This document shows, piece after piece, positions 22,733-63,100 of a DNA stretch of 64,000 nt. A program made the translations under genes and the position numbers. This DNA is from Berberis thunbergii (Eukaryota; Streptophyta; Magnoliopsida; Ranunculales; Berberidaceae): positions 41,158 to 105,157 of the forward strand of contig QNQO01005848.1 of NCBI GenBank assembly GCA_003290165.1, given 5' to 3'. Position 1 is the first letter of the stretch, and every line of letters begins with the position of its first letter. Under the pieces are notes generated by a model. It was not told the DNA's origin, did not search any database, and saw nothing but the letters and a program-made list of their open reading frames with translations.

Positions 22733-22794
<62 letters not shown>

Positions 22795-26640: not shown

Positions 26641-27363
26641 AGGGGTCAAAATTTTGCACAAAAGAAACAACCCCAAAGAGAGATTTTAAGCAAATTTGCA
26701 TGGATTTAGAGAATCCCCATTGATCAAATTCGCAGAAAAATTGTGAGGGTGACAGAGAGATGGATTGGAACTCTACCGTCACTTCTCTGCCCACCAAATC
26801 CTTGAAGTAGGAGAACAACAACTACAAGAAGAAAAAACCAACAAATCAAAAACACCCCATGAAAGGAACTACAAAACCCATCATCAAAACTGTAGAAAAA
26901 AAAACAAAAAATTTGACTTTGAAATAGATAAACTCAAAACAACAGATGGGGAAATCATGTTAAAGATTCAATTTTTCAAGACACAGTGAGAGATCTTACC
27001 ATCTTTTCACCTACTTCACTAGAAAGAAAGAAGGGAGGATGGAGAGATCGACGAGACCTTTCGCTTTGGTTTCTTCTTTGGAGCCAAAAGTGGCTTCTTC
27101 TTTGGCTCGAGCGGGAGAGGGAGGGCTTCCTCGGTCTTCGTTGGGGGAGAGGGAGTGGCTCTCTTCTCTGTCTCTGTGGAGATGGAAATGGGGAGATGGA
27201 AAGGTTCCCTCCTTTTCTCCCCAAAAATTTCGATTCCCTCTTTTTTTTCATTTTTTTTAATCAACGCAGGAGCACGTGCGAGGGACGACGCAGGACCACG
27301 TGCCTGGGAGGGTCCGTCCCATAGGGCGGGCTGTGAGGACGGGCCAGGTAGAATTTTCGAAAT
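25577..27363 (-). repeat. Right arm of GST inverted repeat
   Basis: This arm is the reverse complement of 21292-23121. It holds the same 5' flank, untranslated leader and exons, so the two gene copies point toward each other. Confidence 0.9.
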
Positions 27364-33159: not shown

Positions 33160-36100
33160 TCCATGACCAATACATAGCAAAAGAATTAGATCTGTCCTCC
33201 TAAATGGCAAGCAAAAGATTAGCCGAATCCCCTAGCAAAAGGCATTTTCTTCCATATTTGCGGATGTATCAACTCCAAAGCCGCTTCTGCCGCATAGGCT
33301 TTAGCCACAGTACTGTCGGTGACCGTCTTAGAAATATGACAAGAAAGAGTGGAGACAATCACCCCACGCAAATCCATCACCACAACTCCTATTGCACCCT
33401 ATTTGGAGTTTTTAAAAAAGTATGCATCAAAATTAACAATCAAAGAGTGTGGGTGAGACATAAGGTAAAGATCGGCCGTCAGAGATCAGTTGGAATTCAA
33501 GTGGTGGCTAGCGACCACTCGCAGCTGAACTAGCATAATACCCCGTCTAGCTGTGTCCTCAACTAAGGTGTGCTTGACCTGCCTAGAACAGTCAATAATT
33601 GAGGGTAAGGCAGGCTGCTGAAAATGGCAGTCTTGAATAGCATTTGCAACAATCTGGGGGACATAGCTATGTTGCAAAAGCCCTATCTGTCCTCCTTTGA
33701 ACCAGCAATTATACTAGGATATCCAAGTGCCATGCAACATCTTTCCGAAGAGATGGAAGTCTGTTTTGATATCTTTGAAGACGAATGAGTTACAAAACCT
33801 CCAAATAGATAAAGAGTGGTAGTGAATTAGGACATAAGTTCATCACTCTCATATGCTATACATTTAGTAGTTGTCCAAAGGAAAAGGAAAAAGTCCGAGA
33901 GAGAATTGAGACCTGGGTTTGCCTGCTGTCAGTCAAAAGGGGTCATGGAGCTCCGCCAGAACCTCAACGAGACCGAGCAGCGGAAGAAGAGGTGTACACC
34001 GTCCTCCAGGGCAGAGATACATAGTGGACACACATTTTCAAGAGAGATGTCAGCACGAACAAAATTTGACAAAGTGGGGAGAAGGTCTTGTGAAAGCTTC
34101 CACATATAAAGGATAGCATTAGGTGGGGCTTTGATATGCCAGAGAGATCAGATAAGGTAACCTTGCAAAGAAATTGTCGCGGAGGTGGAGGTTTCAAACT
34201 TTGCCGAGGAGAAAGCTTTGGTGGTGTTACTAACAAAGAACAGTCCCTTCCTATTGGGAGTCCAGATAAGCTTGTATGGGCAAGAGGAGTGTCTGATGAC
34301 AATAGAAAGAATATCGCAAGCCACTGGATACGGGAGAAAAGAGTGGAGCAGATCGGAATTCCAAGACATTGTGTTATTTGGGTGGAAAGTCCAGATATCC
34401 GAAAGGTATTTTGGAAGATTAGGATTAGACTGGTAATCAGGGATGCAATCAGCCAGTCTAAATCCTAGTTTAATCTAGGAGTCGACCCAAAGGTCAGCAT
34501 GTTCACCAGGGAAGATTTGCCAGCACGTAAACTGACGAATGAGGGGAAGAGTTTTAAGATGGCCACGCCAAACAAATGAAGCCACCGATGGTGTTTTATC
34601 GAGGTGAAGGATAGCCTTATTCTTGAAATATAAGGCTTTGAGAAGAAAAGCTCTCAGAGAGGCAAGGTTTGTCATTATCTGCCAAAGGATTTTTGCCAGA
34701 AGAGCAAGGTTTTTAATTCTAGTAAGGGGAATACCCAAACCTCCCAGAAAGTGGGTTTAGAGATTCTATCCTTCGAGCAGCTGTGTTTGGAGTGACCTTC
34801 CATCGTGCCATTCCACCATAAATATCTGGAAAGATTGTCCAGGCGGTTTACAATACTGGAAGCTAACAAGAAGGTTTGCATAGTATAGACGGGAATCAAA
34901 TTCATGACCGATTTGATCATCACCATCCAACCAGCCTGGGATAGGACCTTGAATTTCCAAGCAGCAAGTCTAGTGTTCATCTTGTCAGCAAGAAACTGGA
35001 AATCTTTACTTTTGTTTTTAGGGAGAAGAATAGGTGACCCAAGATATTTATCTTTAAGATTGTAAAATTTTGAGCCAAGGATCCGGGTAATCATACGAGC
35101 ATGGCGGTGGTAGACATTGGAGCTGAAATAGACAGAGGACTTATCAAAATTGACTGCTACTGAGAGAGAATAGTTTTGGTGTTGTGTGCCTTTGCTAAAA
35201 AAGCTCTACAAAAGAGGATGAGGTCGTCTGCGTAAAGCAGATGACTAATGGAGGGGGCATGAAGTCTAAGTTTGAGACGTTTAATGAGATCATTTGATTC
35301 TGTTTTAGGCAACAATCAGAAAAGGGCCTCCGCCACCAAAATGAACAGATATGGATGGAGTGGGTCCCCTTGACGCAGACCTCTAGAAGGTTTGATAGAG
35401 GAAAGAGGGGATCCATTGAGGAGAACTCTGAGGGAAGTCGGGGAAATGCATTGTTCAATCAAGCATATCCATCCTTCCAAGAACCCCAGTTGACGAAAAA
35501 GTTGAATCAGGAACGGCCATTCAACACGTTCATATGTTTTAGCCGTATCAATTTTTACAGCCATCCATCCCTTTTTTCTCTTAAAGTGATTGAGCTGGAA
35601 GAAAGCTTCATGAGCCATAGAAACATTATCCGAAATGCTACAACCTCGAAGGAAAGCTCCTTGGTTGGGGGAGATAATGTCATTAAGCAGAGGCTTGAGT
35701 TTATTAGCCAGAATTTTTGAAATCACTTTGTAAATGACATTACATAGGCCAATAGGATGGAACTTGTCCGGAAAAATCAGACTGTTGACTTTTGGAATAA
35801 GAACAATGAAGGTCTTATTCAGCTTGGGGTTGATCTCCTTAGTGAAGAAGAAAGATTGCACCACCTAGATGACATCAGTTTTGACAACATCCCAGTAATA
35901 TTAGAAGAAGAAAACGTGAAAACCGTCCGGACCAGGGGTCTTATGTTTCCCTATGTCAAACATGGTGTTCCGAATGTCAAGGGCTGAGGGAATGGCTAAA
36001 AGTTGTTCATTAACCTCCAAAGATATCATCGGTTGAAACAGGGAAAGAATTTCCTGATCCTGAGCTGGCATGGAAGACTGGAAAATGTTCTGGAAATAAT

Positions 36101-38339: not shown

Positions 38340-39171
38340 TAGGGGTGGGCACGGGATGGGACGAGATAGACCCATCCCTATCCCATCCCGTTCATACGGG
38401 ATCGGGACGGAATCATCGTGCTCTCATTTTTTGACAAATTACTGCTTACCCAAGACCCAACTTTCTTAGTTGAAAAGAGGCAAAGGCAATTCGTAGAACT
38501 ACACATAAATGATAGTCTTAGATTGAGTATGCAACGTCATAATAAACTACCATAAATGATAGCTGAAATTCACCCTGTAATTAAGATTTTTGCAGAGTTT
38601 TGAATGACTAAGAGGTGGACAGTATAATGGCAATGGTGGACCTACTCTACTGTTTCAAATAGTAAACAAAAGGATGAGTAGATTTGGGGGGCTAAGAAGA
38701 ATGTTTCATTATTGCTTTTAAAAAAAACAGTCATTAAATTCATTATCTTGACACGAAATAAAACTCTCCAATGTAGTTAACAATCCCATTTTGAGTTTTA
38801 AAGAGTTTGCAATTAAATAATTCATTTAGAACTCTAGAAATAAACCAATATCAAGTAGTTGCAGCTATAGACTAATATCAATTACACTGATTTCAACTAA
38901 ATTCATTTTTCTTCAATTATACTAATATTGCAATCCTAAAATAAATAAATAAATAAAAATATTAATAATAAATATTGAAAAATGAGCTTGGGACAGGATG
39001 GGATTGGCGGGATTGAAAATCTTCATCCCATCCCATCCCATCCCATTCTAGATCAGGACGGGACGGGATCGAGATGAAATTATTCAATCTCATTAAGACC
39101 TGAAAAAATCGGGACGGGACGGGACAAGATCAGGATGGGAACGGGATCACGGGATGGGATGCCTACCCTTA
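38340..39171. mobile_element. hAT-like non-autonomous element, second copy of TAGGGGTGGGCA family
   Basis: This is an 832-bp element ending TAGGGGTGGGCA and TGCCTACCCTTA. Its flanks ATGGTCTT and CTAGTCTT match at 6 of 8 bases. Subterminal GGGACGGGA-type repeats and the AT-rich centre match 27599-28361 in reverse orientation. It interrupts LINE ORF1. Confidence 0.85.
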
Positions 39172-39535: not shown

Positions 39536-40971
39536 AGCAGGAAGCACAGGAGGAGGTCCTGTGCACATTTTTGAGCCGTCGGCGGTTGGGTATTAGAAGG
39601 ATTGTAATTGATATAATTGGCATTCAAGGTCACAGAAGGCTGTCCTGCAATAGTAGTATCAGTGGATAGGTTAGCATCTTGAATGTTCACTGTAGCTACA
39701 GTGCTACGAGCTTGGTTTACCACTGTTTCATTTACTGTAGCATTGACAACGAATTGTTGCCCATCAGTGGGAGGAGGATGAGAAGTCCCCTCAGAATTAG
39801 CTGGATGTTGAGGAAGAGATGGTGGTATGATTGAGGAGTATTTTATTGGCTCTATGGGGGAAGGTTGATTAGAGGCGGAGCAAAGCTGCTGTGAATTGTG
39901 GGGTATAGCTAGGGATGTGTTCGGGTGAAGGGTAGGGTTATAACTTGCATTGGGAGTGGAAGAAGGAGTCATTGTAAACGTTTTGGAGGATTTTGGAAAA
40001 GAGAAGAAGGCACTTGGTTCAAAGGTTTTGATCCTACAGGATAAGTTGAAAGGAAGGTGGAGCAGCTAATGAGCTTTTTTCTTGTACAATATTTCATAGT
40101 GGCAGGAGTTCTGGGGAACATAGGGCATTCCAGACCAAAGACGTGTTGCGCCCTTCCACAAGCAAGGCAAAATTTTGCGGGATCCTCAAAGCAGAATTTG
40201 ACTTTGTATTTTCTACCATTGGGGATTCCAAAATCTGTATCCATGGAGCACGACGTGGGTCTGTTCACATCCAACCAAATCTTGAAACGGATGAACGAAA
40301 TCTTTGTATCTTCCACTGATTCGGCATCAATCTCCATTACCTCACCAATGCTATTGGCCAAAGTATAAACTGTGTCGAGTTTAAGTTTACGACTGAGGAA
40401 TTCGTGAAGCCTAATCCAACAGGGAAATTTTGCAAAATCAATTGCCATGTAATCTTCTTGCCATTATTTGATGGATACCAGCCATCCAAGAACCTGCATT
40501 GAGAGCTAAGTTCCAATATTCTTTTCTGTTAAACCTGATGAAATAATAGTTATTACTAAGATCGTTTTTGCGAGGCAGACCATCAACTTGGTATTCCTGA
40601 AAATTATTCCATGGTACTACAAGGCGCTTCGCAAAGAGTTCTGTTCCCAGCTTCTGATGGTGCATATATTTGGCCACCACTTTGTGTTGAAAAGAGTATT
40701 CAGGTTCTTCCAATCCTTCTCCAAAACATGGAGGTGGTAATTTTGATTGTGAAGCAGCTTGTAAACCCAAGTTGTGGAACAATAACTCCGTATCGGATAG
40801 GGTGAGAGATGTTGGATTTGGATTGTCAGCAGTGGTAGGTGTAGTTGGTATAGTAGTCGAAGGAATCACTAGAGATGGTTGAGTCTGTTGGATAGAAATT
40901 GGTGATATTTGGTGGTTGTTGTTAGGCGGGAGAGCGAGGGGGAGGGCATATTGTGTATTCGGATCCATCAA

Positions 40972-46438: not shown

Positions 46439-46907
46439 GTTTCACCATAAACATTATTGTATCAACACTACACAAAAAAAGTCAATTCAGCAACGGCGTT
46501 TAACAGTTGCTAATTATCAAAAACCATAGCTAAAATGAATCAGCAACAGCTCAACGACCATCGCAATACCGTAGCTATTTGAATCAACAATGGTGAACTT
46601 TTCAGTAGCTAATTGGCAACGGCTAAAAACCGTCGCTAAGTTGCAAAAATTTCATCGCTGATTCCGTCATTTTATTTGAGACAACAACAATAACAACGGC
46701 TTTTAAAATGTTTGAGAGGGCTAAGGCTATCGCAAATTGAAAAAATAGAGATGGTTTTTGTCGTGGCTATTTAGTGACGGCCTCAAACCGTCGCTAAGTT
46801 GAAAATCAAATCGACAAAACGGAGACGACATTTGTCGTGGATATTTAGCGACGGCTTCAAACCGTTGCTAAGTTGCAAACCAAATTAACAAAATAGTGGT
46901 AAGTTTT

Positions 46908-46925
46908 TGGCGCCGTTGCCGGGGA
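46908..46925 (+). promoter_or_regulatory. Primer binding site of element A2
   Basis: TGGCGCCGTTGCCGGGGA is complementary to the 3' end of plant tRNA-Asp and is typical of Athila-type elements. Confidence 0.85.
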
Positions 46926-47749
46926 TTGTAACGATATAATCGAAATCTAAAGTTGTTTTTGCTTGTTTATAAATTAGGTTAAAATTTTTTTTTAAGAACA
47001 ATGTTACGAGTCACTTTCTTATTTGTTTTATTTGCTTGAGTTTGAATTAATTTTTTCATTTATTTTGCAGGCGGTCACACACTTAGGAGCTCAAGTGGGA
47101 ACAAAGTGAAATATTGCGATTTGCGTGGAAACTCTCAGAAATTGACTTCTACCGGGCGTCGCAAGTAACCCGAAAGAGGTTCACGCCGAAGGTAACTTCT
47201 ACCCATCGCATCTACATGCGGTTTCTGTGTGATCACTTGTTTTTAGCTTGTTCTAGGTAGTACTGCATGCAAATTTGAATAGTGACAGGATTGAGTTGAA
47301 ACTTCCATGCCCTTTCCAGCAGATAGGTTAATCACCATCTATTTTAGGGTTAGGAACCTAGGCCTTCATTGTAGCAAGATAATTGTCTAGGACAGGTGTG
47401 ACGCTCATAGGGACCCTCTTTGGACGTTTGATAGCTTAAAGTGGTCGAGTGAAGGGACATATCCCATCTGGGAACAGTTCTTGAACTGGCATTTCACTTT
47501 GAGCTAGATATTGGAAAAAGAGCTATGAGCAACTTTGCAGTGGCGGATTGATAAGAAATTACCGTGCCTCTCCCACGGTTAGGTAAATTGAATTGAATAT
47601 CAGCCCTGCATTAGTAAAGGAAAGCTCTAGGGTCGTCTGCCATTCATTTTATTTGCGCATCATTTAGGTGTCATTTAGGGTTCCATTCTTTTTATTTTTA
47701 TTTATTTATGTATTTAGAGTCGGGTCATCTTCATATAGTGGTTAGACAT

Positions 47750-49250
47750 GCATATATTAAAAAAAATCTTGAAACCAAGGAAATGGCTGAGGAGAAAGCC
47801 TTTAAGGATTACTTCTCCCCTTCTACCTCGAGGTTTGAAACAGTTCTTATGACGATGACTCAGAAATTAGATGCACTTATGAATTTGAATCAACCCCTAC
47901 CTCCCACTAATGTTTCATTTGAGGGTTGTGTTGCATGTTCGAGTCCTAGTCATTCTACAGCTGATTGTGATTTGCAATATGATTATCCTGAATATTTCGC
48001 TGAGCAAATCCATTCTTTTAATACTAATTGGCGACCTAGTTATAATTCAAAGTCTAACTATTACAACCCTGGTTTTGCCAATAATCACAATCTCTCCTGG
48101 GCTCATAACTCACACCAAGGGGGACATATATTCTCTTTCAGGCTCCTCAATACCCTAATCATGTTATGCCTCAATTTAACCAAGCTCCTCCATCCAACAC
48201 ATCAAGTTTAGAGGAAACGATTAACCGTTTTATGCAGTGCACAGAACGACTACTTGAACATGATTCTCAGGCTATGTTAGAGTCAAAAGCCATGATTCAA
48301 CACCAATCTCAAGCCATCACTAGACTTGAGATAGTTGTGGATCATATTACTGAGGCATTATCTGAAAGTGAGTTAGGAAGAGTTCCTAAACACTCTATTC
48401 AAAATTCAGAGCATCGACTCTAAATAAATAGTAGCACATTTTTCATAACTAGTAGCACATCAAAACCTGAGTCAGATGATGTTTTTGAGGATAATGTGAT
48501 CGAAACTACTTTTCTTCTTGACCCATTCCTTTCCCCACATTTTCATGATGACCCACTCGACATATGCCTTTCTAGTGACTCTTGCATGAAGTCTAATTCT
48601 CAATGTTATTTGGAGTCAAGCATCGACTATTTTCACGATACGAATGACCCCATAATTCAAGAAATAGTCAAGTCGTTATCGGAGGACACATCTAATGAGA
48701 TACTACATGCCATAGGTAGTGCTAATTTGGGTTTGGGGGTGTTGTTGCTTTGTCTAACTCATCATCTTGGTGTAGTTCATTTTATTATGATGAGCCTGTA
48801 CCACCCGATATATCTATAGACATACCTCGTTCCATCATTTTCATATTGACATATTGACTAATGCTACCGATGTGGATCCATTGTTTGTAAGAGATGATTT
48901 CAGTTTTGACCACCCTGTTGTGATACATATTCAATCTTCTGATTTGCAACCTAACTTAGGATGTCTCTTTTTAGGAGTAGGTAGGAGTCATTTCCTGGAT
49001 ATCATTGTTTATGACCCCTTTCTGCTCAAGGTTCCCACGGATTCTCTAAGAATGCGAGTTCATTTGCATTTTCTCTATGAGTTTGCATGGGATTTGTTAG
49101 TATACGTTGTGTCGCATGTGGTTGCTACTATTTGTTGGATGGATCCTCAACTTTTTAGGTTGTTGCTATATGCTTCCTTGCCCCGTTTTGAGGAGAGTGT
49201 TCGCTATATGTGTATTCCTCGTCATTTCATGGTATATCATTTATGAGGAA
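47750..49250 (+). pseudogene. Athila-type Gag C-terminus plus unknown downstream protein (A2)
   Basis: The first frame contains a CX2CX4HX4C zinc knuckle (CVACSSPSHSTADC) and NYYNPGFANNHNLSWAHN, an Athila-type Gag signature. The larger N-terminal Gag domain is missing, because the leader joins directly to the region before the knuckle. A frameshift near 48125 leads to a second frame rich in Gln and Glu (48166-48423). Two further frames, 48496-48819 and 48854-49246, are acidic and then hydrophobic and do not resemble pol. The same arrangement is found inverted in element A1. The likely product is a non-autonomous element's Gag-like protein. The downstream part is unrecognised. Confidence 0.65.
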
Positions 49251-51456
49251 GAACATATGTCGGGATGATGACGTTAAACCAAGCTCTCCTAGGAGGCAGC
49301 CTAGCTTTAGTTGTGTCATTATGGTTAATCTGGACTGATTTTCGAGTTTTTTCTAGCTGCATTTCACTCATACTCGTTAACTCCGTAACAATTTTGACTG
49401 ACAACTGATACATTTAATTTTTTTCATTTGTCCATTTGTATATTTTTTGTATCCTATATTGCTTATATCAATTTATTATGATGAGTCCACAGTTCTTATG
49501 TTTTTGAGCATTCATTGGTGGACGATTTCGTCGAAATTAGTAAAAACTTTCTCATGGTAATATCACTCTAACTCTCATTTTTTCTTTTTTCTGCGTTTGT
49601 CATAATCATCATTTTATACATCGAGGACAATGTTTGGTTTAGGTTTGGGGTGAGGTTTAAGAGTTTTTTCTGCATTCTTTGAAAATTTTGAAATGAAATG
49701 TATTTCACAATTGACTATTGTATTCTACTCAATCTCCATTGAATACATAGTTAATTATGACTGTGTGAAAATTTTCGTAAATGCATTCAAAATCTAAGTT
49801 TCTTTCCAATGAAGAGGATGTGTTTTCAAGTATGCCTTTAAATTTGAGGAATACATGCTTACACTTGTCACTTTAATATATTAATAGGAAAACATATGGT
49901 TTGATATTATCTTTAAGTTAAATATATTTCATGATATATTTTCAACTCGACCACTCTTGCACTATAAGCCGAGTTAGCATAACTCGAAGTTAATCAGTAA
50001 GATATTAATTAGAAAACCTTAGAATAATAGTGGAGACTTAACCCTTGTGAATTTCGAGACATTCTACTTTTTTTTTTAGAGTTATTAAATAAACTCTGAC
50101 TTTTCTTGAGTTCGCACTATTTCGTTGATGATCTCATTATTCTTGTTTCTTTTATTGATTGCTTTGATAATGTCGTTAAAATTGAATTATTACACTAGAA
50201 CTTCTTGATTTATTTAGTTGAGATGTCATAATACCGACTAGAGCTTAAGAAGTGATATAAGCATTTTTTTTCTTTGAACCGTTCTTTAGCCTTTTAGCCT
50301 ACTTAATGATAAATATCCATTTGCAGCCCTTTGAGCCTTTAAATAAACTTTTTCTTTACTAACCTCATCTCCATTGCCTACTCCAGTTAGAGAGTAATAT
50401 CCTATACTATTTTTATCCTTACCCAATGTGTCTGAGAATGTATATGGTTGATGTATTTTTTAAATGGGCAAATAAAAAGAGTTGAAATTAAATATTCCAT
50501 GAATCCTCGGGATTGAAATGTTTTATTGTGTAGAAGGGAAAGCATGTCAAAAAAATATATATATATAAATGAAAAAAAAATATGAAGAAAATTTTCGAAG
50601 GAAGAAAATTAATGGTGTACAACATTGGTTTATTCTTCAGAGCCCCACATGCTTATTAAAGGGTGTATCCATTCTCGGAGAATTTTCTTGTATTCTTTTT
50701 CCATTCTTATAAGCCAAAATCTTAGCCTCATTACAACCTAATAAAGACCTAATTGATCTTAAGTAAATGTCTGGTTCATAGATGTGGAGATTAAATAGAC
50801 AAGAACTATGGTATATGATTCAACATTCTCAAAGTAATTGATATTCCTGTCCATGAGATCATATTCATTTCATTCTTTGAAAAATCTGTTTTTCATGATT
50901 ATTATATGTGAGATATTTGTGTTTCCATAATTTATTCTCTTTCTCATATATAAATTGAGTGATAAATAACCAATCTCTGAGTGATTCATTTCTTAGTGAC
51001 AAGAGAAATTTGTAGTTGAAGCGTACAATTCAAAGGTTATCTAGTCGTATCTTTGCAAAGAAAAATAAAGTTATGTTGATAAGGCCATGCACACACACAC
51101 ACACACTTCGAGTTGGGAATAATTGATGAAATTATTTAACCTTTGGTATTATTAAATTGTTGTTAGACGTTTTGATATATTATTGTGACACTGTTAGTTG
51201 TTTTCTGAAAATTTTGGCAATTAAATTATTTCTCTGAGGATAATAGATCAAGTTACCATGTTTTGGAAATTTATTGAGTCATAATGTTTGTGCGTGACAT
51301 TTCTGGAAACCCTCACGAGACTATAACTCGTCCACTAAAGGTAATCTAGCGGTTTAAAACTTTGTTGCACGTTTAAGTTAAGTGCAACAGATGATTCCTG
51401 CGAAAGTGAGTTAGAATTTTATTTTTATTGTTTTGCTCGAGGACTAGCGAAATATA
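49251..51456 (+). other. Noncoding 3' internal region of element A2
   Basis: This is AT-rich, without open frames of note, and conserved in inverted form at 2765-5080. It is where pol would be expected to end in an autonomous relative. Confidence 0.7.
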
Positions 51457-51470
51457 GGTTTGGGGGTATT
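51457..51470 (+). promoter_or_regulatory. Polypurine tract of element A2
   Basis: GGTTTGGGGGTATT lies immediately before the LTR start TGATATTCAC. It is also the point where the A1 inversion breaks. Confidence 0.65.
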
Positions 51471-53407
51471 TGATATTCACGTAATTATTACATAATATAT
51501 CCCTTAATTTATATATGTTAGTGTTTCGATTATTATATTTATTCTTATTATTTCATTTTTATGTCTTTGTAGGAATTTAAGCGTGAACGATGAAATCACA
51601 TTAAGGCGACAATTGAAGTAATGATCAATTGGTTGATTCTAGCGGTGGTACAAAGTAGATGGTCACATATCTAAACCTAACCCAAATAAACCTAGGTCCA
51701 CTTAGTTTAACCTAAGCCCAAACCCAAAATGCTAATCTAGAAACCCAAGCCCAACGCCTTTTGGAGAACCCAAGCCCAAGGAAATAAGATATTTAGGTCT
51801 TCCCCATTCTTAGAGAAAACTTCCCCTCTTCTTCCACGTTGTTTTTCTCTTCCTCTCTTTTCCATCCACCACGCCAATCCACCTTGCGGCAGTGCGATCA
51901 TCCCGCCATCACCACCTCCCCTCGTCCTCCACCATCATCCGTCACCTCGCCTTCCTCCCTCACCCGCTCTTCCTCGCTCGATAGGGGTGACGCACCACCC
52001 TGTCCATCGTAGACATCATCAACTTCTTGTTTCACATAACCACCGCCCCTATCCCTGTCGCAAACCACCGTAACAACACCGCCCACGGACCCCCCTGTTC
52101 CTCTCTTATTCCCCTGTTTTCGTGTCTCTTTCTTCACCTCGCCATCGTCCAACATCATCACCGCCGAGCACCACCATCAGACGCCACTACTCCTCCTTCC
52201 TGTTTCTCTCTTTCTCAGCCACCGCCCTGTTGCACCATGCGACAGAGCTCCACCGCTCTGTCTCCTTCCTCCATTCTCGCCCTCTTCAGTCTCTCTCTCT
52301 TTGTTAATCCTTCTCCCAGCCCCCTCTCTCTCTCTTGCAAAAACCGGAGCTCGTCGGAGGAACAAAGAGCTCGTGAGGAGTAGCGTAAACAGGGAGCGCC
52401 TCCCTGTTTCCCTGTTTCACCAACCCTGTTCCTATTTCTCCTTCGCGTATTTTTCTCTCTCGTTGTTTCCTCACCCTCTCTCTGTCTTCTTGCAGGTACC
52501 GGAGCCGTTTGGAGTGAAGACGAAGGAGTGCGGCTCGCTAGCGACGAAGGCGCAATGAAAACGCGAGATTTTTGGCGGGAACCAATTGTTTTTCAAATAG
52601 TTGGCTATTTGCACCCCGAGAGTCTGTAAGAGCCACCACAGAGCATTTGTAACTTATTCTCGGGATTCGTGTTCGTGCATAGATGAATTCCACCTCCATT
52701 GATGTTGTGACCACTACTACCATGATCTTCTAGACCCCACGCCGAGGCGAAGATGAAACCACAGGGTTTCTTAGAGTTTGTTGTATTTGAATTTATTGTT
52801 TTCTTTATACTTGAACGTTAAACGCATTTGATTTCTGAGTTTCAATAATTTGCTTTCACCAATTATATCCTGATTAATTATCTAGACTAGTCGGTAGTTA
52901 GAAGTACCCTTTATTGATATTCAAAACCTGTTTTAATCAATTAATCTGAATCTGTGATTGTGTGTGCCGTAAGAAGACATACAATGCTAGGGGTTTAGAA
53001 TTAGTTAAAATAAGCATGTGATTGTGTGTGCCATAAGAAGAAATATACCTTTGCTGAAATCAATTGCGAACATAGATTAATCTTTAGGTTAGTCATATTA
53101 ATTCCTGAAAACAATAATTTGGATTACACAAATCTTGAAGAATCTGTGGTGGATTCAATGTCTCGGTCCCCTCTCGTGTCATCCTATCAGTTTAATTTTA
53201 GTTGTCAATTCATTTTCTTAATTTAGTAATTTTCATCTGCTGTAAGCCCCAACTCTAAATTGGTTCAAATAAGTCTTAGAATTCGACTATCTCGTCAATC
53301 CTCGTGGGATCGACCTGTATTTGTCACTGTCTACCAATTAGACAACCGTGCATTATTACAAGTAGGGTTTATCAACTTATTAATTTAGGTTAATAAAAAC
53401 TCCATCA
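51471..53407 (+). repeat. 3' LTR of element A2
   Basis: This LTR is 1937 bp, starts TGATATTCAC, ends TCCATCA, and aligns with 1-1930. Frames inside it (51898-52558) mirror those in the A1 LTR and are not genes. Confidence 0.88.
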
Positions 53408-53920
53408 ATCAACAATGGTAAACTTTTCCGTAGTTAATTGACAACGGCTAAAATCCGTCGCTAAGTTGCAAAAATTCCGTCGTTTTATTTGCAAAAATTT
53501 CGTCGTTTTATTTGAGATAGCAGCAATAGCGACGGCTTGTAAAATGTTTGAGAGGGCTAAGGCTGTCGCAAATTGACAAAATAGAGATGGTTTTTGCCGT
53601 GGCTATTTAGTGACGGCCTCAAACCGTCGCTAAGTTGAAAATCAAATCGACAAAATAAAGACGACATTTGTCGTGGCTATTTAGCGACGGCTTCAAACCG
53701 TTGCTAAGTTGCAAACCAAATTAACAAAACAGGGACGGCTTTTGCCGTGGCTATTTAGTGACGGCTTCAAACCGTTGCTAAGTTGCAAATCAATTTAACA
53801 AAACAGGGACGGTGTTTACCGTGGCTAATTGGCGACGGCTTCAAACCGTTGCTAAGTTGCAAATCAAATTGTCAAAATAGAGACGACATTTGTTGTTGCT
53901 AACACTAACTTGTTGTAGCT

Positions 53921-55575
53921 AAAAAAATTACTAATGAAAATTCATTTTTTATAATGAAATTAGTTCTTTTTATTAATTTTCAGATTTCTCATTGCCTTTT
54001 ATTTGTCATTCAGAATAACATTTCAAACCTAAACATAATTATATTAATTTCCGTATAATCAATAACTTGTCCATTACAAAAAAATACAATCCCAAACACT
54101 TTATACATAAATACAATTTTAATTTGAGATATAACTGACTTAAACATAAATCATAGTGATCGTCTATGGGACATACAACAAAAATTATACATACAACAAT
54201 TCATGTGATCTTGCACACCATATTGATTATCCCACAAAATGTGTTCTACTTCAAAACCAATATCAATTCAGCCACACCTAAACCTATAAAATTTGAAAGT
54301 GTGGTGCATGAGAAATGTATTGAATGTTTAAGCTATGTAATACAAATCTCATAAAGTTGCAATTTCAAATGGAGACTCTCAGTTACAACTAAGATGCTTT
54401 TTTACATTACTAATCAACATCTTATTAGATAGAATAAAATATTCTTTTCTATTTTGAGTTGGCACATTTGTAGGATCGACAAAGGTTAGCAGAACATATT
54501 AACAAGGTGAAATAAATAAATTTAAATGCTACGATGCTGAAATTTAAACGCTGAAATGTTGAAATAAACACTGAAATAAATGTTGAAATGCTTAAATAAA
54601 TTCAAACAACGTACTGGCATTGAAGCAGCATTCCAATTAGCATTCAAACTAACATTCCTACTAGCAGCATACTGGCATTCCTACTAGCAACATACTGGCA
54701 TTCAAGTTGAGCAGACAAAGTAAAAATATTGCATATCAGAATTATGGCGGAATGTTCAACCAAGTTGAGCAGAAAACAATCAATAAGCTTATCTAAAGCT
54801 TATGTTCAACCAATAAATAAGTTTGTAGAATGTTCAACCAATTGAGCAGGAAAGTTATGTTCAATCAATAAGTTGGCAGAATGTTCAACCAAGTTGAGCA
54901 GGAAAGTTAAGTTATTATTTTCTTATCTAAAGCTCATAATTCAACAATCAATAAGTCTCTGACACCAACTTAATTCCTGAAGCAAGATGGCCACTAGAAT
55001 TTCACTAGGATTGCGTGTTGGATTACAAGTAAAACATATAGTCATGCACAATACAAGACATGATATTGACTAAATGAAAAAGATTCAAGTTTTTTTTTTT
55101 ATAAATTAAACCTCCGGTAGGGAGGGGAAACTATGGGATTCCAAACCTTTATTACTTATCAAAAAATTTGATTTACAAGCTGAACGGAGGTACATTACAG
55201 ATGCTAGCAAACTATAAGTTTATTTCTAGAAAATTATATTCGGATGTTTATGCAGCCAATCAACCAAATTTCAGTGGGGGAACATGCGGATGCTAGCAAA
55301 CTAATGAAGAATCATGTAATCGCCGCATTATAGACAACAGTATCATATGGGAAAAACCCCATTACAACCACTCATTATTGAAGAATCGATACCCACTATG
55401 AAAGGGATATATATGAAAACAAAATCGCTATGACCACAGTAAATGATCAAGAAGTGGTCTTCCAAGTATGAAAAAATATTGGTAAGCATACAAGAAATCT
55501 AACTAGTGTGATAGTCAAATGATCTCATGTTCTGATGTCGTCTACAACTCAATGGTTGCTTTAAATCCTACTTGA
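53921..55575. other. Unassigned DNA
   Basis: No gene recognised. Bases 54530-54600 hold short GCTGAAAT-type repeats, and 54600-54920 hold irregular repeats of ACTGGCATTC and TTGAGCAGRAAA. Confidence 0.5.
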
Positions 55576-55846
55576 GTCTCTCCCGAAAATAAATTTCCTA
55601 GTCCAATCTGTAACCACCAGCATCCTTGTGCGCTAGCTGACTTGCTTACTGCAAAAGATGCAAGACAATCAAAGAGAATAAATATTATGTTCATTCAAGG
55701 TAAAGATGAAACATTTCAATAAAATTCATAATTGTAATAGCGAACACACCTTCACAGCGTGCTCTGCTGATTTCCTGGCATGATCAGCTTGCAGGTAACT
55801 GCAATGCAGGCATTCCCCTCGTTGGAAGTAAAAGATCCATACTGCT
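55576..55846 (-). pseudogene. C-terminal exon pair of an unrecognised gene
   Basis: Two minus-strand pieces appear to belong together. The first (about 55846-55750) reads [20 protein letters not shown] then SAEHAVK. The second (about 55645-55576) reads SKSASAQGCWWLQIGLGNLF then SGETQVGFKATIEL and a stop. The sequence between them has a splice-like acceptor (TTTTGCAG), but the donor phase is not clean. I do not recognise the family. The first piece continues the frame of the AGC kinase fragment without a break, so it could be an in-frame fusion made during capture. Confidence 0.45.
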
Positions 55847-56284
55847 CTACACATACTGCTCTTTCCACTCTCAACTAAATCATGATCACTAATCTTAGTG
55901 CTTCCACTGGTTTTGCGGAGACTGTTGGCTCCATCACTAAATTTTGCAGAAGCTGAACTATATTTGACACTCCCAGGCTCAGATATATTCTTCTCTTGAT
56001 CCCCTCCACCATCTAGTGAGCACCTAATTTCTTTTACAGAAGCAGCATTTACTTGTGTAGGCAACTGTTCTAACAATTCTGGAGGAAGAATTTACACCCA
56101 ACTTATTGTCTATTTTCTTGTTCTCTGAGGCATAGGCAATGACCAGCTCTGCAACAGCTTCTTCAACAGAATTTTGCAAATTTTTAGGCGTAACTGGTTT
56201 TGATTTGTTGGTTTTTGTGATTAGCAATGGTGAAGGTTTGCGCCTACTTTTCTCTACTGTTTGATTACCAAGCTTTGATGCCAT
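55847..56284 (-). pseudogene. N-terminal fragment of a D6PK-type AGC protein kinase
   Basis: The minus frame starts MASKLGNQTVEKSRRKP at 56284. After one frameshift near 56090 it continues [15 protein letters not shown] and ends [10 protein letters not shown]. The SGKSSMCR motif comes directly before the Gly-Ser-Thr-Ser-Ser-Asp-Val stretch in D6PK/G11A-type plant AGC kinases. Here it is cut just before that stretch. No kinase domain is present. Intact members phosphorylate PIN auxin transporters at the plasma membrane; this fragment cannot. It is one of the chain of captured pieces in the 55.6-61.8 kb interval. Confidence 0.65.
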
Positions 56285-56564
56285 TGAAGAATATTTCCTT
56301 TAAAGTCGAGCAAACCCATTATTAACTCCCAGCTCTCTCTGTCCAAAGAAAAGGTTCGATACTAATCGTGATCTTCGCAGTGAAGTTGTCATAACCAGAA
56401 GCAGCAGATGCAAAACTAACACCAGTCAATAGCTCTTCCTTCTTCAGCGTTGGGTCCAGGAAGGCTGGAATGCTCATTTTCAATCCCAACGATTCCGTTA
56501 CACAAACAAATCAAAGAATAAAGAACACCCAAAGAGAAACCATTCAGTTTGAACGACATAAAGT

Positions 56565-56850
56565 GATATAGAGGAGCAAACCAGTGAAGTCTGTGGGGAG
56601 TCTTCCATTGCCGAACCTTCCAGTAAACTGACCATTGAAGAAATTCTTCCTGTAAGGTGCAAAGTTTGCCTTAAATGTTGTATTAAGCCTATTGCTGTTT
56701 CCAGATCAACACTTGAATCACCAAACACCAAAATGCATGAAACATTTTTTGGAGCAACGCCTACACCATGTTGTCCGCTGATGGATTCAGCACAAGTGAA
56801 ATGGTAAACATAATGACAATAAGCAGCACCACCACCATGGTTGCCTTCAT
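56565..56850 (-). pseudogene. GDSL esterase/lipase first exon fragment
   Basis: A minus-strand ATG at 56850 opens a typical signal peptide (MKATMVVVLLIVIMFTISLV). An in-frame stop follows, and a frame change leads into NVSCILVFGDSSVD, which is block I of GDSL lipases with the nucleophile Ser in GDSS. A second frameshift is needed to read NRLNTTFKANFAPY and GQFTGRFGNGRLPTDF. The fragment ends near 56565, about where the first intron of such genes often lies. Only the N-terminal quarter of a protein of about 360 residues is present. Intact members are secreted hydrolases. Confidence 0.8.
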
Positions 56851-56884
56851 GGTCATATGCGAAGTTTGCACACACAAATTGCAC

Positions 56885-57401
56885 AAGAGAACTGATAGGT
56901 TTATCTGTGCAAAAAGCTCACTTTATCTGGCAAATCTTTAGGGAATGAGGGTTATTTGATGTTTTGACTGAACCTAGATAGCTAACACACAATTCATATT
57001 GAATGACTTCATAAAAAAAATTTCATATTGATTGCTAACATAACCAAATCCAGCTTACATTTCAGATATTATTCACTTGATTTATGGGTCAAAATATTGA
57101 TTTTTGAATCCATATCAGAGGTTAGGGTTCCCAGAATATAGAGAGCACAATAACCAGAATTGCCGCCATAAAAAGATAATACTTAAATGAATATGAATGG
57201 CAATACAACTTTGACTTATGCACAAATGCACATGCAAAGATTGTAATAAAAAGAGTAACGAGTGAGAACTCACAGCCAAAAAGCTTATCATAAAAAGGAA
57301 CCCCTAGGAGAATGACCAAGTCAAACCCCAATCCCTGAAAATAAACAAAAAATCATCTACTGAAAAATGTACATAAGAAGTAAGCCAAGAGCATTACTTA
57401 C
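56885..57401. other. Unassigned DNA between captured fragments
   Basis: No certain exon. A GGATTGGGGTTTGAC stretch near 57330 on the minus strand follows a TTTTCAG acceptor and loosely resembles the next MCTS1 exon (GIGVD), but similarity ends there. Confidence 0.35.
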
Positions 57402-57469
57402 ATATCTTTTGCCGACATCTTTGTATAACCTATTGCAAGAGCGTGTTGCTTTCCTTCAGCCATTATGGC
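57402..57469 (-). pseudogene. MCTS1/MCT-1-like (PUA domain) exon fragment
   Basis: A 68-bp minus-strand exon flanked by CAG and GTAAGT reads AIMAEGKQHALAIGYTKMSA then KD. This is the C-terminal PUA region of MCT-1-like translation factors, which with DENR help re-initiation and ribosome recycling. The exon is open and its splice sites look normal, but no other certain exon of the gene is nearby. It lies between NOP2 and GDSL fragments in the same orientation. Confidence 0.75.
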
Positions 57470-57874
57470 CTGGAAGATTTAAGGGAACAGACAATAAGAA
57501 AATTATTGATTCTAGCAACTAAACAAAGCATTTAAGGCATAACTTAGATTTAGTGATAGAATAGTCGTTAGCTTGATGTCTAAATCACAACAAAATCAAA
57601 CTTGCTCACAAGCAGCATATGCTACCAGACAGATCAAAATCTCCTTTGACTGCCTAAGATACATTTCAGATTCATTATGCCTTGGTTTGAGAACAAAATC
57701 TACTAATAACAAGCCGAGAAATGAAACACTGCAATAAAACAGGAAAAAGAAACAGAAATACAATGTCGCATTGATCGCGTTTATGAAATGGAGGTATTCT
57801 CATATTTGACTTGAAAACAAAGAAGAGGGTGTATATTATAGCACCAATAAACCCTAATGTGAACTGACACATAC
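57470..57874. other. Unassigned DNA between captured fragments
   Basis: No exon recognised. Confidence 0.4.
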
Positions 57875-60608
57875 CTTCTGTAGCAATGCACAGTTCTGAA
57901 TATCTTCAAAACTCTTAGATGATTTAACAGATTCATCCTGGAAATAACCTAAAAAAACAAAAGTACATGCTCATTTAGCATAATCAAGCTGTAAGAAGAG
58001 TTTGTCACTAAAATCAAATGTATATTAAAAAAGTTCAGTTAATTTACCCCAGTTCCACTGCATGGTGCATCTAACAACACTCTGTCAATTGAATTTTGTC
58101 CCAAGACCTTGGGGAGCTGTTAATTGAATAAACATCCTATCAGGCATGAAATTCATGAATGCTGCCATTAATATTAGAATTACAATTATTATTTCCCAGA
58201 ACGTTAAACTAACCTCCTTTCCATCATAGTTACACACAATGGTGTTTGTCACACCCATACGTTGCAAATTTGTTGTAAGAGACTTCAACCTAGGCTCTTT
58301 GATTTCATTTGCATATAAAATTCCTGGTAAAAATTGAACTGTATAAGAAGAATAAAGGTAAGCACTCATGCCAACATGTAGATTCTGATGTATTAGGTAA
58401 CATTATCAAAAAAAAAAAAAAAAAAGGAATTTAATTGATAGGAATTGTATCTCAAAGTGTCATCATTTCAGGGTTCATTCTGGTATCAAAGAAATATTTT
58501 ACTAGAGATAAGGTAGCATTAAGTATTTTACAAGGCATTCCTAGTTATGATTTATTTCACTTTAAACAAGGTTAAAGCCTCACACTGGAATGGGTTGTTG
58601 TTTGAGTTTATGAATGAGAATTGAGTTAGGATTGAAGAAATTTATCGCCCATTTATTTATTGGCAGTTAATTGTACAAAATTTAGCCAATAAAACCTAGG
58701 GAAGATACCGTTGAAGGAAATAATCAATGACATCAAGAGATGTTCAAGGTGGGCTCATGTTTTGTATCCATTTCTCAGCTTTTGTCTAATCAAGAGAGGT
58801 TCAAGATGGGCTCATGTCCAAGTCTTGTATCCATTTCTCAGCTTCTGCTCAAGGACCCAGCTCATTAGTCTTTTAAAATGACACCACCTCGCACTTCCTA
58901 TAATATCCTATTTCGACAGAATTCTCCTTCAACTTCAATGTTTCTACTACACGTAGTCTTGAAAAAGTTTGACTGCATCATGTGGTGTTTAGACACTAGG
59001 GCTTTACAATCGTTATGATCAACAAAAACTGACTTTATGCAGAAAAAATTTTAGGCTAACAACTGCTCGTACATTTTTCAGAGGTTTCTTTCTTGAAGCT
59101 TGAAGGACGAACGTTTCTTAACCAAATTAGGGAGTATGATAGGATGTGCATCCTTTAGGTTAGGCATAGTTTCACTTAAATAAGGCGAGGGCCTCGCACC
59201 ATATTTTTTTTTTTTTTCAGTTTACAAATTGAAACTTCAGTTAAGGCAGGAAGCTTTTAAACCATGGATCAGCACAGTAGTATCCCACCTACTGGTTCAA
59301 AAGACATAATGAATGGAAAACTAAGATTTTCTGCCTTCCTAAGTCGGAGAATGGTTTCATGTATTAAGCTAATTATTGAGATTCTGGCTGCATACAAAAT
59401 ACAACCTAATATATAACTTCTATTTAGTATTACCCAAGTAACAGTCATCCATTTTCTTGAATGAAATAACTTTATATACAGAATACCATACTGCATGGAA
59501 CAACAAACTAGATTGTGACAAAGTTAGCACATACCACTATTCTTCATAAGAGCTGCAATGTATGTTGTTTTTCCACTAGGTGCTGCTTTGAAACAAGAAT
59601 AATGCAACCTCGCATCATAATTCAAATATTCACGAAGGTACAGTAATGGATAGGATGCATCAGCTATCAATATTTATCAATTTTCATTTTGTTTTGTCAA
59701 GTAATAAGCATATTGTTTAAAAAGATAGAAAATATCTATTTATAAAATTTAGACCGATTAATTTTGATTAATCCTGATTAATCTCATAACACTCTTGAAT
59801 CGATTAGGGGTTGATTAACGATTTAACTACATAGCATAGCCACCAACAATGTCAAAAGTTTACTCTAACAGACGAATAGAAAGATGTATATGAGTTATGT
59901 TTCAACTTTTTTTATTACTTGAAAAGTTGATCAGTGGATATGGAACCTAAGGATGTAGTGTAAATTTTTTATCGGTCAATAGTTACTTCAACTAATTTTA
60001 TAGGATGTAGTAATCCTTTTGTTACGAGTCTGAAGTACTTATGCCATATCCACAATTCGCTCCCTCTCCTGAGGAGCAAGGGCCATGACAATCAAGAATG
60101 AGCTAGCACTTTGCAGCTATGAACAATGAAAAAACATTATTAAGAACTAGACAAGAATAGGGGACAACAATGGTAAATAAATAAATAGACATGATGGGCA
60201 TCTAAATTACCATATTATGACCAGCCATATATTCCGAAGTGGCACCAATTGGCACTTGTGAATCGTAAACAACAAGTCCAACCTAAAAATCATGATATCA
60301 GCACAAATTTTCGATGGTAAAACGTAAAACTGGAAGCTATATCAAGAATATGGTGTTAAATTTACCTTAGACCACTTGCTTAAAGGATCTAAGTTTACTC
60401 CTCTGTTTAAGAGAACATCGGCCAAATCTCTCCTCCGAGTCTAAAGTAATAAGAAAGCAGTTAAGCGGTATGTTTATTACAAGAAAATTTTGAAACAATA
60501 TTCAGAATAACTGTGTCTTTCTAACTTTAATGTGTTCGTCCTTAAGCAAATAGGCCGAGGCTTTTCATAAGCTTCAATTAGTTCTAAAAGTTCTACAACT
60601 GGAAACAT
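57875..60608 (-). pseudogene. NOP2: NOP2-type 25S rRNA m5C methyltransferase fragment, eight exons
   Basis: NOP2/NSUN1 methylates large-subunit rRNA in the nucleolus. Minus-strand exons: 60608-60526 ([14 protein letters not shown]), 60440-60366 ([20 protein letters not shown]), 60282-60211 (VGLVVYDSQVPIGA), 60116-60042 (LQSASSFL, ALAPQERERIVDMA), 59587-59535 (APSGKTTYIAALMKN), 58323-58214 ([25 protein letters not shown]), 58116-58048 (VDRVLL-type, DAPCSGTG) and 57948-57875 (DESVKSSKSFEDIQN). Most introns keep GT-AG. The piece spans the middle of the catalytic domain only; the N-terminus and the exon with the second catalytic Cys motif are absent. Defects: the SAM-binding APGGKT reads APSGKT, one intron has lost both GT and AG, and the last exon has a 1-bp deletion. 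It is a DNA-level capture of a genomic segment. Confidence 0.9.
58407..59534 (-). other. Large intron of the NOP2 fragment
   Basis: The intron between 59535 and 58323 contains an A-run at 58410-58425, a near-repeat of AAGAGRTTCAAG and GGGCTCATGT (58736-58830), and a T-run at 59205-59217. No gene or complete element was identified. Confidence 0.5.
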
Positions 60609-60918
60609 CTGTAGCCAACAGGAATGCGTATTAGATATACCCAAAGGCATAGTATCATTAATCAAGAAGTTCTGCTCTCTATTGAAATGAAAATTAGCTA
60701 ATATTTGTTTCTATCTCTTAAAAAATTTTAAAAAACGACACTCCCAGTCCTCAATTCCTCATCTTAAGCCTTTAGAATAGTGTTTGCATCAATAACGATA
60801 ATAAGTTACCTCCACTAAACCCCAATTAGGAATTCATTGTACCCATAGTAAGAACTCAAATTTCTTTTAAGCTACCCAATGTAGTCCTTCCTTGTTGCCC
60901 CTTCTTGTCTCAACGTCT

Positions 60919-61164
60919 TCAAGGAGGTGCTTCCTCTGACCCAGCAACACCAATCTCTCAACATACTTCGTCCAAAGTCAGCTTCCATACAAATCTATTA
61001 AGCAGAAAAAAATATTGTAACAATACAACAATTGTGATCAAGCATGCAAAGCTAAGAGAATACAGACAATAAGAAGATAAACAAACCTAGCTTTTGATCA
61101 TTGCAGGCAATTGACATTCATCACCAACTAGTATTGCATGCTGGATACCTGGAAGTAGTAGAGC
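60919..61164 (-). pseudogene. SEN1-like superfamily 1 RNA/DNA helicase fragment, two exons
   Basis: Exon 61164-61087 reads LLLPGIQHAILVGDECQLPA then MIKS and a TAG where Lys is expected. The VGDxxQLP run is helicase motif III of UPF1/SEN1-type helicases. Exon 60994-about 60919 reads EADFGRSM then, after a 1-bp deletion, ERLVLLGQRKHLL, the stretch that follows motif III. The intron between them has AG at its 3' end. Motifs I, II and IV-VI are absent. Intact relatives unwind RNA-DNA hybrids in the nucleus. It lies upstream of the NOP2 piece in the same orientation. Confidence 0.8.
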
Positions 61165-61526
61165 CTAACAACATGCAATCAGAACCACCAAATTATGCAG
61201 AAATGAGAACTAATTATGCAGAACCACCAATTCAAATCCCACAGAGGACATACCTCAAACACTATCATAAAAATTAGAACCTCCACCCCATTTAGTCGGT
61301 TTTGCTTCTTAAACTTCATTCCTTTTCAAAGTCATTCAAAACAAATACAATCAACCAAACCCACGCCAAAATCCACCTAATCAACTCCCATTCACATAAT
61401 CACCCAACAAACCAACACCCCCAGATATCAAAATTCAACAAAAACAACCAAAATCCAACATGCAAATTCACAATTAACACAAACAAACCAAAACCCATAA
61501 GAAAATTAAACCATAAACACAATTAC

Positions 61527-61774
61527 CTTCAAAATAGCAGGTTTTGCTGACAAACCATTGGGGAGGCTCTCAAGCTCAATAGCTCTCCTTGCAATCCGAA
61601 TGGGGAGCTCCTTGTGAAGAAACTGAGCAGAGATGAACAAGTTTTTCTCAGTGGGTTCAGACCCAAACTCCATCATGTACTCAAGCTGACCCCAATCTGT
61701 TTCATTCCACCCCATTTCTGTACTTCCTCAATCAGAGCCTTGGAGAAGGTCTCAGATAATTTCTTGACCGCCAT
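61527..61774 (-). pseudogene. PDK: Mitochondrial pyruvate dehydrogenase kinase, first exon
   Basis: The ATG at 61774 (minus) opens MAVKKLSETFSKALIEEVQK then WGGMKQIGVSLS. A 1-bp deletion then shifts the frame before YMMEFGS. The second frame reads PTEKNLFISAQFLHKELPIR then IARRAIELESLPNG and ends AILK at a GTAATT donor. This is the conserved first exon of plant PDK, which phosphorylates and inactivates the pyruvate dehydrogenase complex in mitochondria. No later PDK exon follows; helicase exons come next. About 250 bp upstream (61775-62060) may be the captured PDK leader and promoter, so this exon could start a chimeric transcript. Confidence 0.88.
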
Positions 61775-61879
61775 GGCTGAACAGTGAAGATGAAAGGGCT
61801 GAAAGGGGAGAAGAGGAAATTTGAAAGAGGAATTAAAAACCCAGCATAGACAGAGAAGACCAACAGAGGTTACAAAGAA

Positions 61880-62060
61880 GAGGTTACCATGCGCAGAGTC
61901 AGTGAGCAACAGTTGTGGAAGAGAGACGCAGAGAGAGAGAGCTGCTCGAATGAGATGAGAGGTGAGCAAGAGATCGAGCAGAGAGAGGCAAGCAAGAAGG
62001 AGATGGGAGGCGAGCAAGAGGTCGAGCAGAGAGGTGAGTTCTGTAGTGAATGGGGGGAGA
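61880..62060. repeat. Imperfect GA-rich direct repeats upstream of PDK exon
   Basis: A motif of about 35 bp with GAGCAAGAGATCGAGCAGAG and GAGGCAAGCAAGAAGGAG variants occurs about three times. Frames through it on both strands are artefacts. Confidence 0.6.
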
Positions 62061-62079
62061 GGAGAGATAAAGTCACGAA

Positions 62080-62233
62080 ATACCCAAAAATTTTGGGAGC
62101 GCCAAAACGCCCGCCAATTGATTATAGCGTTTTTTTATTTGCAAAGTCATTCAAAATTGACTTTTTATAGCATATTTATAAAAAAAAAAACGCTATCGGG
62201 CAAATGCTATCAATGAGCATTTGTGTTGTAATG
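62080..62233 (-). mobile_element. CACTA-like terminus beside the captured-fragment chain
   Basis: Read inward from 62233 on the minus strand, the sequence is CATTACAACACAAATGC, one base from the CACTACAA start of CACTA transposons. It is followed by short inverted and direct copies of GATAGCG and GCTAT motifs and then TTGGCGGGCGTTTTGGCGC, a composition typical of CACTA subterminal DNA. A matching left terminus was not found between 53920 and 55575. The element boundary and superfamily are therefore provisional. Confidence 0.5.
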
Positions 62234-62679
62234 TGTATACTATAGAAATTAAGCTCTAACCTAGCGATTTTTTATAGCTAAAAAGAGAATATATATATGA
62301 AAACACCACAAAGCAACACTCACTGATATCCTAATTCCAAGTAAAAGAACACACTAAACAAATGCAAACAAGAGCTTAATCCAATGACGTAGTTCAACTA
62401 AAAACATTTCAACAACACAACGATCATGAAGGTAAAATAGAACTAATTGAACATATCTACCGATCTATATATTGAATCCTAAATGGCGCTCTCTTATCCA
62501 CTCACTTTATTCAAATTTTAGCCTACAAAAACATGAATAAATAGGGTGTCACTTTGTTGGTGCAGTGATATAGTATGCAAATTCCTCAAGTTGGGATGAA
62601 TTGACCAATAAGCATAATCACCCATTTGTTCCATCATGTGACGGACTTGGAGTTAGCCGCTACAAGAAGCATAATCACC
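62234..62679. other. Unassigned AT-rich DNA
   Basis: No supported feature. Confidence 0.5.
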
Positions 62680-63100
62680 TAGGGGTGGGCACGGGACGGG
62701 GATGGGACGAGATATATCCATCCCTATCTTATCCCCGGTCATACGGGGATCGGGACGGGATCAGTGTGCTAATCTGGACATATCAACTAGAATACATTTT
62801 GAACATATTATCAAACTAGAAGTCTAAAGTTCTAAAATACATAGAACATATTAAAATCAACTCAATTTTGCTGGAACATAATCAATTCTGCTGGAACATA
62901 CTCAAAAAATACATAATCAAATATGCTGGAACATACTCAATTCTGCTGGAACATATTAAATACATATTCAATTCTGCTGGAACATACTAAGTCTGCTGAA
63001 ACAGTTTTAATATGAGCATAATGTTGGAACAGTCTGAGTCTGAGTCTGAGCATAATGCTGGAACATACTAAGTCTGAGTCTGAGTCTGAACACCTGAAAA
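62680..63100. mobile_element. Partial hAT-like element, third copy of TAGGGGTGGGCA family
   Basis: The left end is TAGGGGTGGGCA at 62680, followed by GGGACGGG-type repeats that match the start of 38340-39171. No right terminus was found before the window ends. Inside, a motif TTCTGCTGGAACATACTCAA recurs about seven times at 62860-63070, along with GTCTGAGTCTGAG repeats. The end coordinate is approximate. Confidence 0.6.

Follow-up and report, generated by a model that had tools for sequence, protein, structure and literature searches.

The stretch analysed here, 64,000 nucleotides of Berberis thunbergii DNA (the window, whose positions serve as coordinates throughout), carries on its minus strand a chain of exon pieces from at least six genes, among them PDK, NOP2 and the AGC kinase gene D6PKL2. 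The original prediction, made from the window sequence alone, had described such a chain in one orientation with introns kept, and the same chain was recovered together with its flanks on a second contig of the host assembly (C94:1301400-1324400, 98-99% identical). The C94 copy is presumably the other haplotype, and since it carries the same chain it speaks against an assembly artefact. The chain is most probably a defective Pack-CACTA element, that is, a non-autonomous CACTA (En/Spm) DNA transposon filled with host-gene fragments. It extends from about 62235 to 55213, limits that replace the 62233 to 55576 first proposed, and all pieces lie in sense orientation with their introns (Table 1). 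The gene order, the two helicase exons and the MCTS1 exon stood as predicted; NOP2 was found to comprise nine segments rather than eight, and the GDSL lipase piece two exons.

Table 1. Features of the chain, in the order in which they are read on the minus strand.
Feature	Position	Strand	Basis or remark
CACTA 5' terminal region	61991..62235	-	Genome matches, four copies lacking PDK, fold z
PDK exon 1 with 5' flank and donor site	61527..61774	-	Pfam and Thalictrum PDK; 1-nt frameshift in window copy
Putative SEN1/UPF1-like helicase exon	61088..61167	-	Lacks, at 61163/61167, a 5' part that other copies have
Putative helicase exon 2, frameshifted	60919..60995	-	Fused to NOP2 within exon
NOP2 (26S rRNA cytosine-C5 methyltransferase), middle part	57875..60918	-	Nine exon segments with introns
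Putative fusion junction between NOP2-bearing and MCTS1/GDSL-bearing cargo	57557..57558	-	Junction-spanning genome comparison
Probable MCTS1 exon (part of PUA domain)	57398..57470	-	PDB match
Putative GDSL lipase exon 1, frames broken	56585..56858	-	Pfam, exons 1 and 2 joined
Putative GDSL lipase exon 2	56360..56478	-	Pfam, exons 1 and 2 joined
D6PK-like AGC kinase (D6PKL2) 5' part, N-terminus	55845..56340	-	D6PKL2 match
C-terminal piece, gene(s) not assigned, two exons	55599..55844	-	Stop codon at about 55600
3' flank of C-terminal piece and first ~23 nt of CACTA 3' subterminal region	55213..55598	-	Homology to a family member ends here

Identity and condition of the gene pieces

Sequence comparison argues strongly for the assignment of the PDK, NOP2 and D6PKL2 pieces. 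PDK exon 1 matched its Pfam family with an E value of 7e-13 and Thalictrum PDK at 87%; a PDB search gave no match at E 0.01. The NOP2 piece was recognised in both Pfam (E 6.4e-42) and PDB (E 1.2e-98), and the AGC kinase piece corresponds to D6PKL2 (E 1.5e-26). In phylogenetic trees the NOP2 piece grouped, with modest support (88/76), with Coptis, Thalictrum and Aquilegia, and the PDK and D6PK trees gave no resolution, Camellia being the best D6PK match. The MCTS1 assignment is of moderate strength, based on a PDB match across 23 residues (E 2.3e-5) and a Pfam PUA match short of the cut-off (E 0.048). Just after this exon, at 57275-57335, lies an open stretch of 20 residues with splice-like sites on either side (GLGFDLVILLGVPFYDKLFG).

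The helicase and GDSL pieces are only weakly assignable from the window. The helicase exons matched UPF1 in PDB at E 0.0043 and Pfam AAA_11 at E 1.9e-4, below the cut-off, and the longer helicase pieces of relatives elsewhere in the genome gave firm matches (AAA_11, E 2.8e-17; AAA_12, E 1.1e-27). The two GDSL exons reached E 0.0024 in Pfam when joined, again below the cut-off; taken singly they matched no Pfam family, and the PDB search gave no GDSL match. For the C-terminal end piece no Pfam family was found; over 16 residues it resembles rice monodehydroascorbate reductase (E 1.2).

The reading frames are damaged to differing degrees. PDK exon 1, frameshifted by one base in the window, is unbroken in the C94 copy (residues 1-84), and frameshifts or stops also occur in helicase exon 2, NOP2 and GDSL, with four lesions counted by eye in the NOP2 piece. 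Compared with 24 orthologues, drawn from 120 listed NOP2 proteins, this piece departs at six of 147 otherwise invariant sites, against zero to three of 148-151 for each orthologue. Splice dinucleotides, judged by eye, are intact at 13 of 14 donors and all 14 acceptors, the broken donor being the one after the fifth NOP2 exon. Because the pieces keep sense orientation and splice sites, transcription from the PDK 5' end, or from further upstream, could possibly yield a spliced chimeric RNA. Introns, whose absence marks a processed retrocopy, are retained.

Ends of the element and its relatives

The host assembly searched comprises 2.24 Gb in 11,732 contigs and appears to hold both haplotypes, so that all place counts include pairs. 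Lack of a shared outer boundary would have refuted the original prediction; the genomic copies do have a common outer 5' boundary. A 261-nt query from the 5' end gave 1292 first-look candidates, and among the best 40, which were scored, 38 matches begin near 62233 at query positions 57-71, of which 36 lie at 64-71 and two at 57. The remaining two are the window itself and C94, where the match continues through the flank. The CACTA-like terminus that had been noted on one side is the element's own 5' end, near 62235, common to many copies. Its outermost bases are CACATTACAACACAAATG in the window and CACTACAACACAAATG in the family, it is followed by subterminal hairpins of ATAGCGTTTTT type, and the fold of the window's 5' end has a z score of -4.24.

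Sequence of 10 kb was taken from 17 of the 38 boundary-sharing copies. PDK-bearing sequence is common to 13 of them, seven of which hold residues 41-84 only; in the other four, which lack PDK, the shared part is limited to 62236-61991. Both ends lie within the 10 kb in ten copies, with lengths of 5.9-9.0 kb. All ten start with CACTA (for copy L039 the start had been placed two bases too early by the program and was set by hand), and they end with GTAGTG in eight cases, GTAGAG in one and GTCGTG in one. The copies L024 and L025 have common flanks, as do L037 and L038, so that the ten copies represent eight sites; 3-bp target duplications are identical in nine of the ten copies, or seven of the eight distinct sites. 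At both ends of the relatives, AGCGTTTTT-type motifs were seen by eye in direct and inverted orientation. In the PDK block, the window copy diverges from five other copies, two of which (L033 and L034) share one site, by 6.7-7.4% (Kimura two-parameter distance, 1017-1049 sites).

The CACTA ends, 3-bp duplications and captured gene pieces of these relatives place the chain in a Pack-CACTA family, and we put the probability that it is a defective member at roughly 0.92. The suggestion that a transposon had captured genomic fragments is supported by the many copies that bear CACTA ends and cargo; what had been called a possibly uncharacterised capture element belongs to a known kind. Further cargo was observed in single relatives: copy L037 (C5937) contains a piece of a plastid-type ATP/ADP transporter (Pfam TLC, E 1.6e-42), and below the cut-off an HCO3-transporter piece was seen in L034 (C564) and a cyclic-nucleotide-binding piece in L032 (C1826), a copy whose 3' end was not found.

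The 3' side of the window copy is truncated. A relative on contig C7178 is homologous as far as 55213, and from 55212 on the window departs from it; the relative continues for 205 bp more to its CTTGTAGTG end. No 3' end turned up further left within the window, nor in the adjoining 41 kb of the contig, and the best alignment for a left terminus within the window scored 30, compared with 31, 27 and 32 in three shuffles. An 18-nt inverted match at 55089-55106, equalled by one of 800 simulated sequences, was set aside as a poly-T/poly-A stretch. The idea of one intact, shared mobile unit is not supported, as the window copy lacks the 3' terminus and joins two types of cargo. Family members would move by cut and paste through a transposase supplied in trans, which would act on the terminal and subterminal repeats; with the last ~205 bp gone, the window copy should no longer move. 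A scan of ten open reading frames in the window revealed no transposase family, the host not having been searched for one.

Other capturing transposons were considered against the same data. Helitrons have a 5' TC and a 3' hairpin-CTRR, insert between A and T and are not known to make a target duplication; sense orientation and kept introns are usual in them. Capture by rolling-circle transposition of a Helitron would fit the several sense fragments with introns, and TCTATAGTATA, which stands on the minus strand at 62246 close to the 5' end, is somewhat Helitron-like but follows a T. In maize, helA Helitrons are reported to hold 0-12 gene fragments with a mean of three (PMC3288121). Hairpin-CTRR sites numbered three on the plus and four on the minus strand of the 64 kb, and three shuffles of a single strand gave 4, 2 and 2. 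None lies at the left end, where no stable hairpin was found in a run without control. The relatives show CACTA ends and 3-bp target duplications, which make a Helitron highly improbable. Pack-MULEs are known to form multi-gene chimeras, and are recognised by long terminal inverted repeats and a 9-bp duplication. No long inverted repeat flanks the chain among the longest pairs listed, and with 3-bp duplications in the relatives, capture by a Pack-MULE is more improbable still.

Junctions, donor genes and assembly of the cargo

Two junctions in the chain differ in their distribution. The helicase/NOP2 junction at 60919 lies inside an exon; when the best 40 of 285 candidates for the query 60700-61250 were scored, it was spanned at 21 places other than the window and C94, with a match covering all of the shared stretch at 17 of them and part of it at four, and a further 17 places had the helicase side only. 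For the query 57350-57760, of which the best 40 of 267 candidates were scored, the junction at 57557 was spanned by the window and C94 only, and the other 38 places had the MCTS1 side only; any copy spanning this junction would be expected among the best-ranked candidates. Because 60919 occurs at 21 other places and 57557 in the window and C94 only, copy comparison indicates that the junctions differ in age. PDK exon 1 and NOP2 occur in the same order and orientation on C1270 and C10111. The GDSL and D6PKL2 blocks keep their order on C64, C135, C6180, C285 and C7178, with a spacing of 0.83 kb in all but C64, where it is 2.3 kb. Relative to other copies, about 600 bp is gone from the window copy at 61163/61167, and a deletion of 0.8 kb or more probably occurred at 56340.

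On the simplest reading, the window copy arose when an element bearing PDK, helicase and NOP2 fused with one bearing MCTS1, GDSL and D6PKL2. Cargo would have accumulated in steps: the NOP2 fragment would have been added at 60919 to an element that had PDK exon 1 and helicase, and a separate lineage would have carried MCTS1-GDSL, with D6PKL2 as well in at least five other contigs. Joining at 57557 most likely came about through the movement, as a single unit, of elements that lay side by side or recombined, and later trimming would include the deletions and the loss of the 3' terminus. A patchwork of repair DNA, or serial independent insertions in place of a single element, was weighed as well: the junctions at 57557, 56340 and 61163/61167 were found only in the window and C94 among the scored places, and the 3' end is lost. 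The blocks recur at many places with order and orientation kept and often with the common 5' boundary, which makes a patchwork origin of the whole chain improbable; for the single step at 57557 it is possible.

Capture by joint mobilisation of neighbouring insertions, as we infer it here, corresponds to a published model in which neighbouring insertions are re-mobilised (PMC8903248; also the review PMC13317346). Such a process can leave internal terminus remnants. The evidence for such a footprint of tandem insertion is weak. The terminus-remnant search gave six hits, every one at the edge of trimmed terminal regions, and none in ten shuffled sets. Short motif likenesses at two spacers, matched by 4 and 58 of 3000 simulated sequences, are suggestive only. 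Of 17 stretches tested, two, both of them spacers, had p values no higher than 0.05, as did the left flank. The motif TTGAATGACTT occurs exactly only at 62144, 61329 and 56999 within the 64 kb; with one mismatch allowed, its five matches do not exceed chance (3.8 on average, and five were reached in 31 of 100 shuffles).

Alignment to parent genes gave likely donors for PDK, NOP2 and D6PKL2. For PDK these are multi-exon genes at C249:399670-403439 and C71/C5592; by eye, 65 of 69 listed exon-1 places (from the best 111 of 578 candidates, both haplotypes and C94 included) have no other PDK exons nearby. The likely NOP2 donor, C1212:142000-147252, is 93-96% identical through introns and has the downstream exons, and a second NOP2 copy at C2385/C872 reaches 78-87%. 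D6PKL2 DNA is 94% identical at C1212/C2580 and 96-97% at C2385/C872, so that the NOP2 and D6PKL2 pieces are each nearest to a different donor region. The likely donor D6PKL2 genes continue into the kinase domain, and the fragments in the window, in C94 and in five element copies all break off near one and the same residue. The likely donors found do not lie side by side as the pieces do in the element: PDK lies elsewhere, and in both paralogous regions (C1212 and C2385/C872) NOP2 and D6PKL2 are 15-20 kb apart on one strand with D6PKL2 first, the opposite of the element, where NOP2 comes first.

Several points weigh against a defective Pack-CACTA element, beginning with the apparent presence of both haplotypes in the assembly. 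The window's 5' end reads CACATTACAAC, not CACTACAAC; without a 3' terminus the window copy cannot show a target duplication of its own; and the flanks of copy L029 are unlike (AGG/AGC). When the cargo was searched with actual termini of the family, no clear internal remnants came to light, which also speaks against a simple tandem-insertion footprint. By the invariant-site test, which used 21 of 120 listed PDK and 12 of 28 listed D6PK proteins, departures of 0 of 43 and 1 of 20 sites indicate no decay of these two pieces. The donor search covered three of the pieces, PDK, NOP2 and D6PKL2.

On the Pack-CACTA reading, the multi-gene chain is explained as transposon cargo, and many PDK, NOP2, GDSL and D6PK fragments in the host genome would not be genes. 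Copies with helicase, with helicase and NOP2, and with helicase, NOP2 and MCTS1-GDSL-D6PK would form a natural series from which the order of cargo gain could be dated, and the way in which CACTA elements capture genes would become testable by copy comparison instead of inference from single elements. It is a more doubtful proposition that Pack-CACTA elements here act as a modular cargo system, fusing with one another and always in sense direction relative to a shared 5' end. If true, this end, with a host first exon and 5' flank, would build ever longer spliceable chimeric genes in traceable steps.

Other repeats were observed in the window. A second, different CACTA element (46466-53922) begins with CACTACACAAAAAAAG at 46466 and has GACGG-type subterminal arrays; its end was rejected as a partner terminus for the chain because the end sequence differs. 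Inside it lies retroelement-like DNA (46901-53408) with a direct duplication of about 320 bp on either side (89%), and 24-6231 and 46901-53408 are two copies of one repeat, permuted in order, with the middle block inverted and 83-89% identity. An inverted duplication of 1.8 kb joins 21297-23122 and 25578-27357 (95.6% identity). The stretches 62680-62770, just outside the CACTA end, and 38340-38422 have taggggtgggcacggg ends, which we take to be hAT-like, and are 82% identical. Remains of non-long-terminal-repeat retroelements lie at 35319-35864 and 39972-40463 (reverse transcriptase, E 5.4e-21; DUF4283, E 3.7e-4, below the cut-off).

Relation to known gene-capturing elements

The present elements differ from Helitrons in ends, mode of insertion and target duplication. 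Like the multi-gene Helitrons described for maize, they hold several host-gene fragments per element (PMC3288121).

A closer parallel is soybean Tgm-Express1, a CACTA element reported to carry, introns included, pieces of five host genes that are unrelated to one another; it sits in a gene and is transcribed and spliced into chimeric RNAs (PMC1947982). The window element is likewise a CACTA element carrying intron-containing pieces of several host genes; unlike Tgm-Express1, it appears defective, its cargo recurs in many copies, and chimeric splicing is a possibility. In Ipomoea nil, the mostly non-autonomous Tpn1 family comprises 339 CACTA elements with a mean length of 7,081 bp and 3-bp duplications, whose interior is replaced by captured host genes (PMC5105172). 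Host, ends and cargo differ from those described here, and the sections on Tpn1 that were available do not mention joining of cargo between members. Among the titles and abstract openings listed in literature searches there was no Pack-CACTA family from Ranunculales; a Ranunculus genome paper mentions CACTA once (PMC12448783).

Pack-TYPE elements of Arabidopsis, maize and rice carry cargo from several loci, most in maize Pack-CACTA, and for Pack-Mariner, elements fused from two smaller ones were reported (PMC8903248). The kind of element is already known; in the present copy its step-by-step assembly from older elements can be read. In contrast to the Pack-TYPE elements described there, a single locus here shows an order of joins, through the copies that share each junction.

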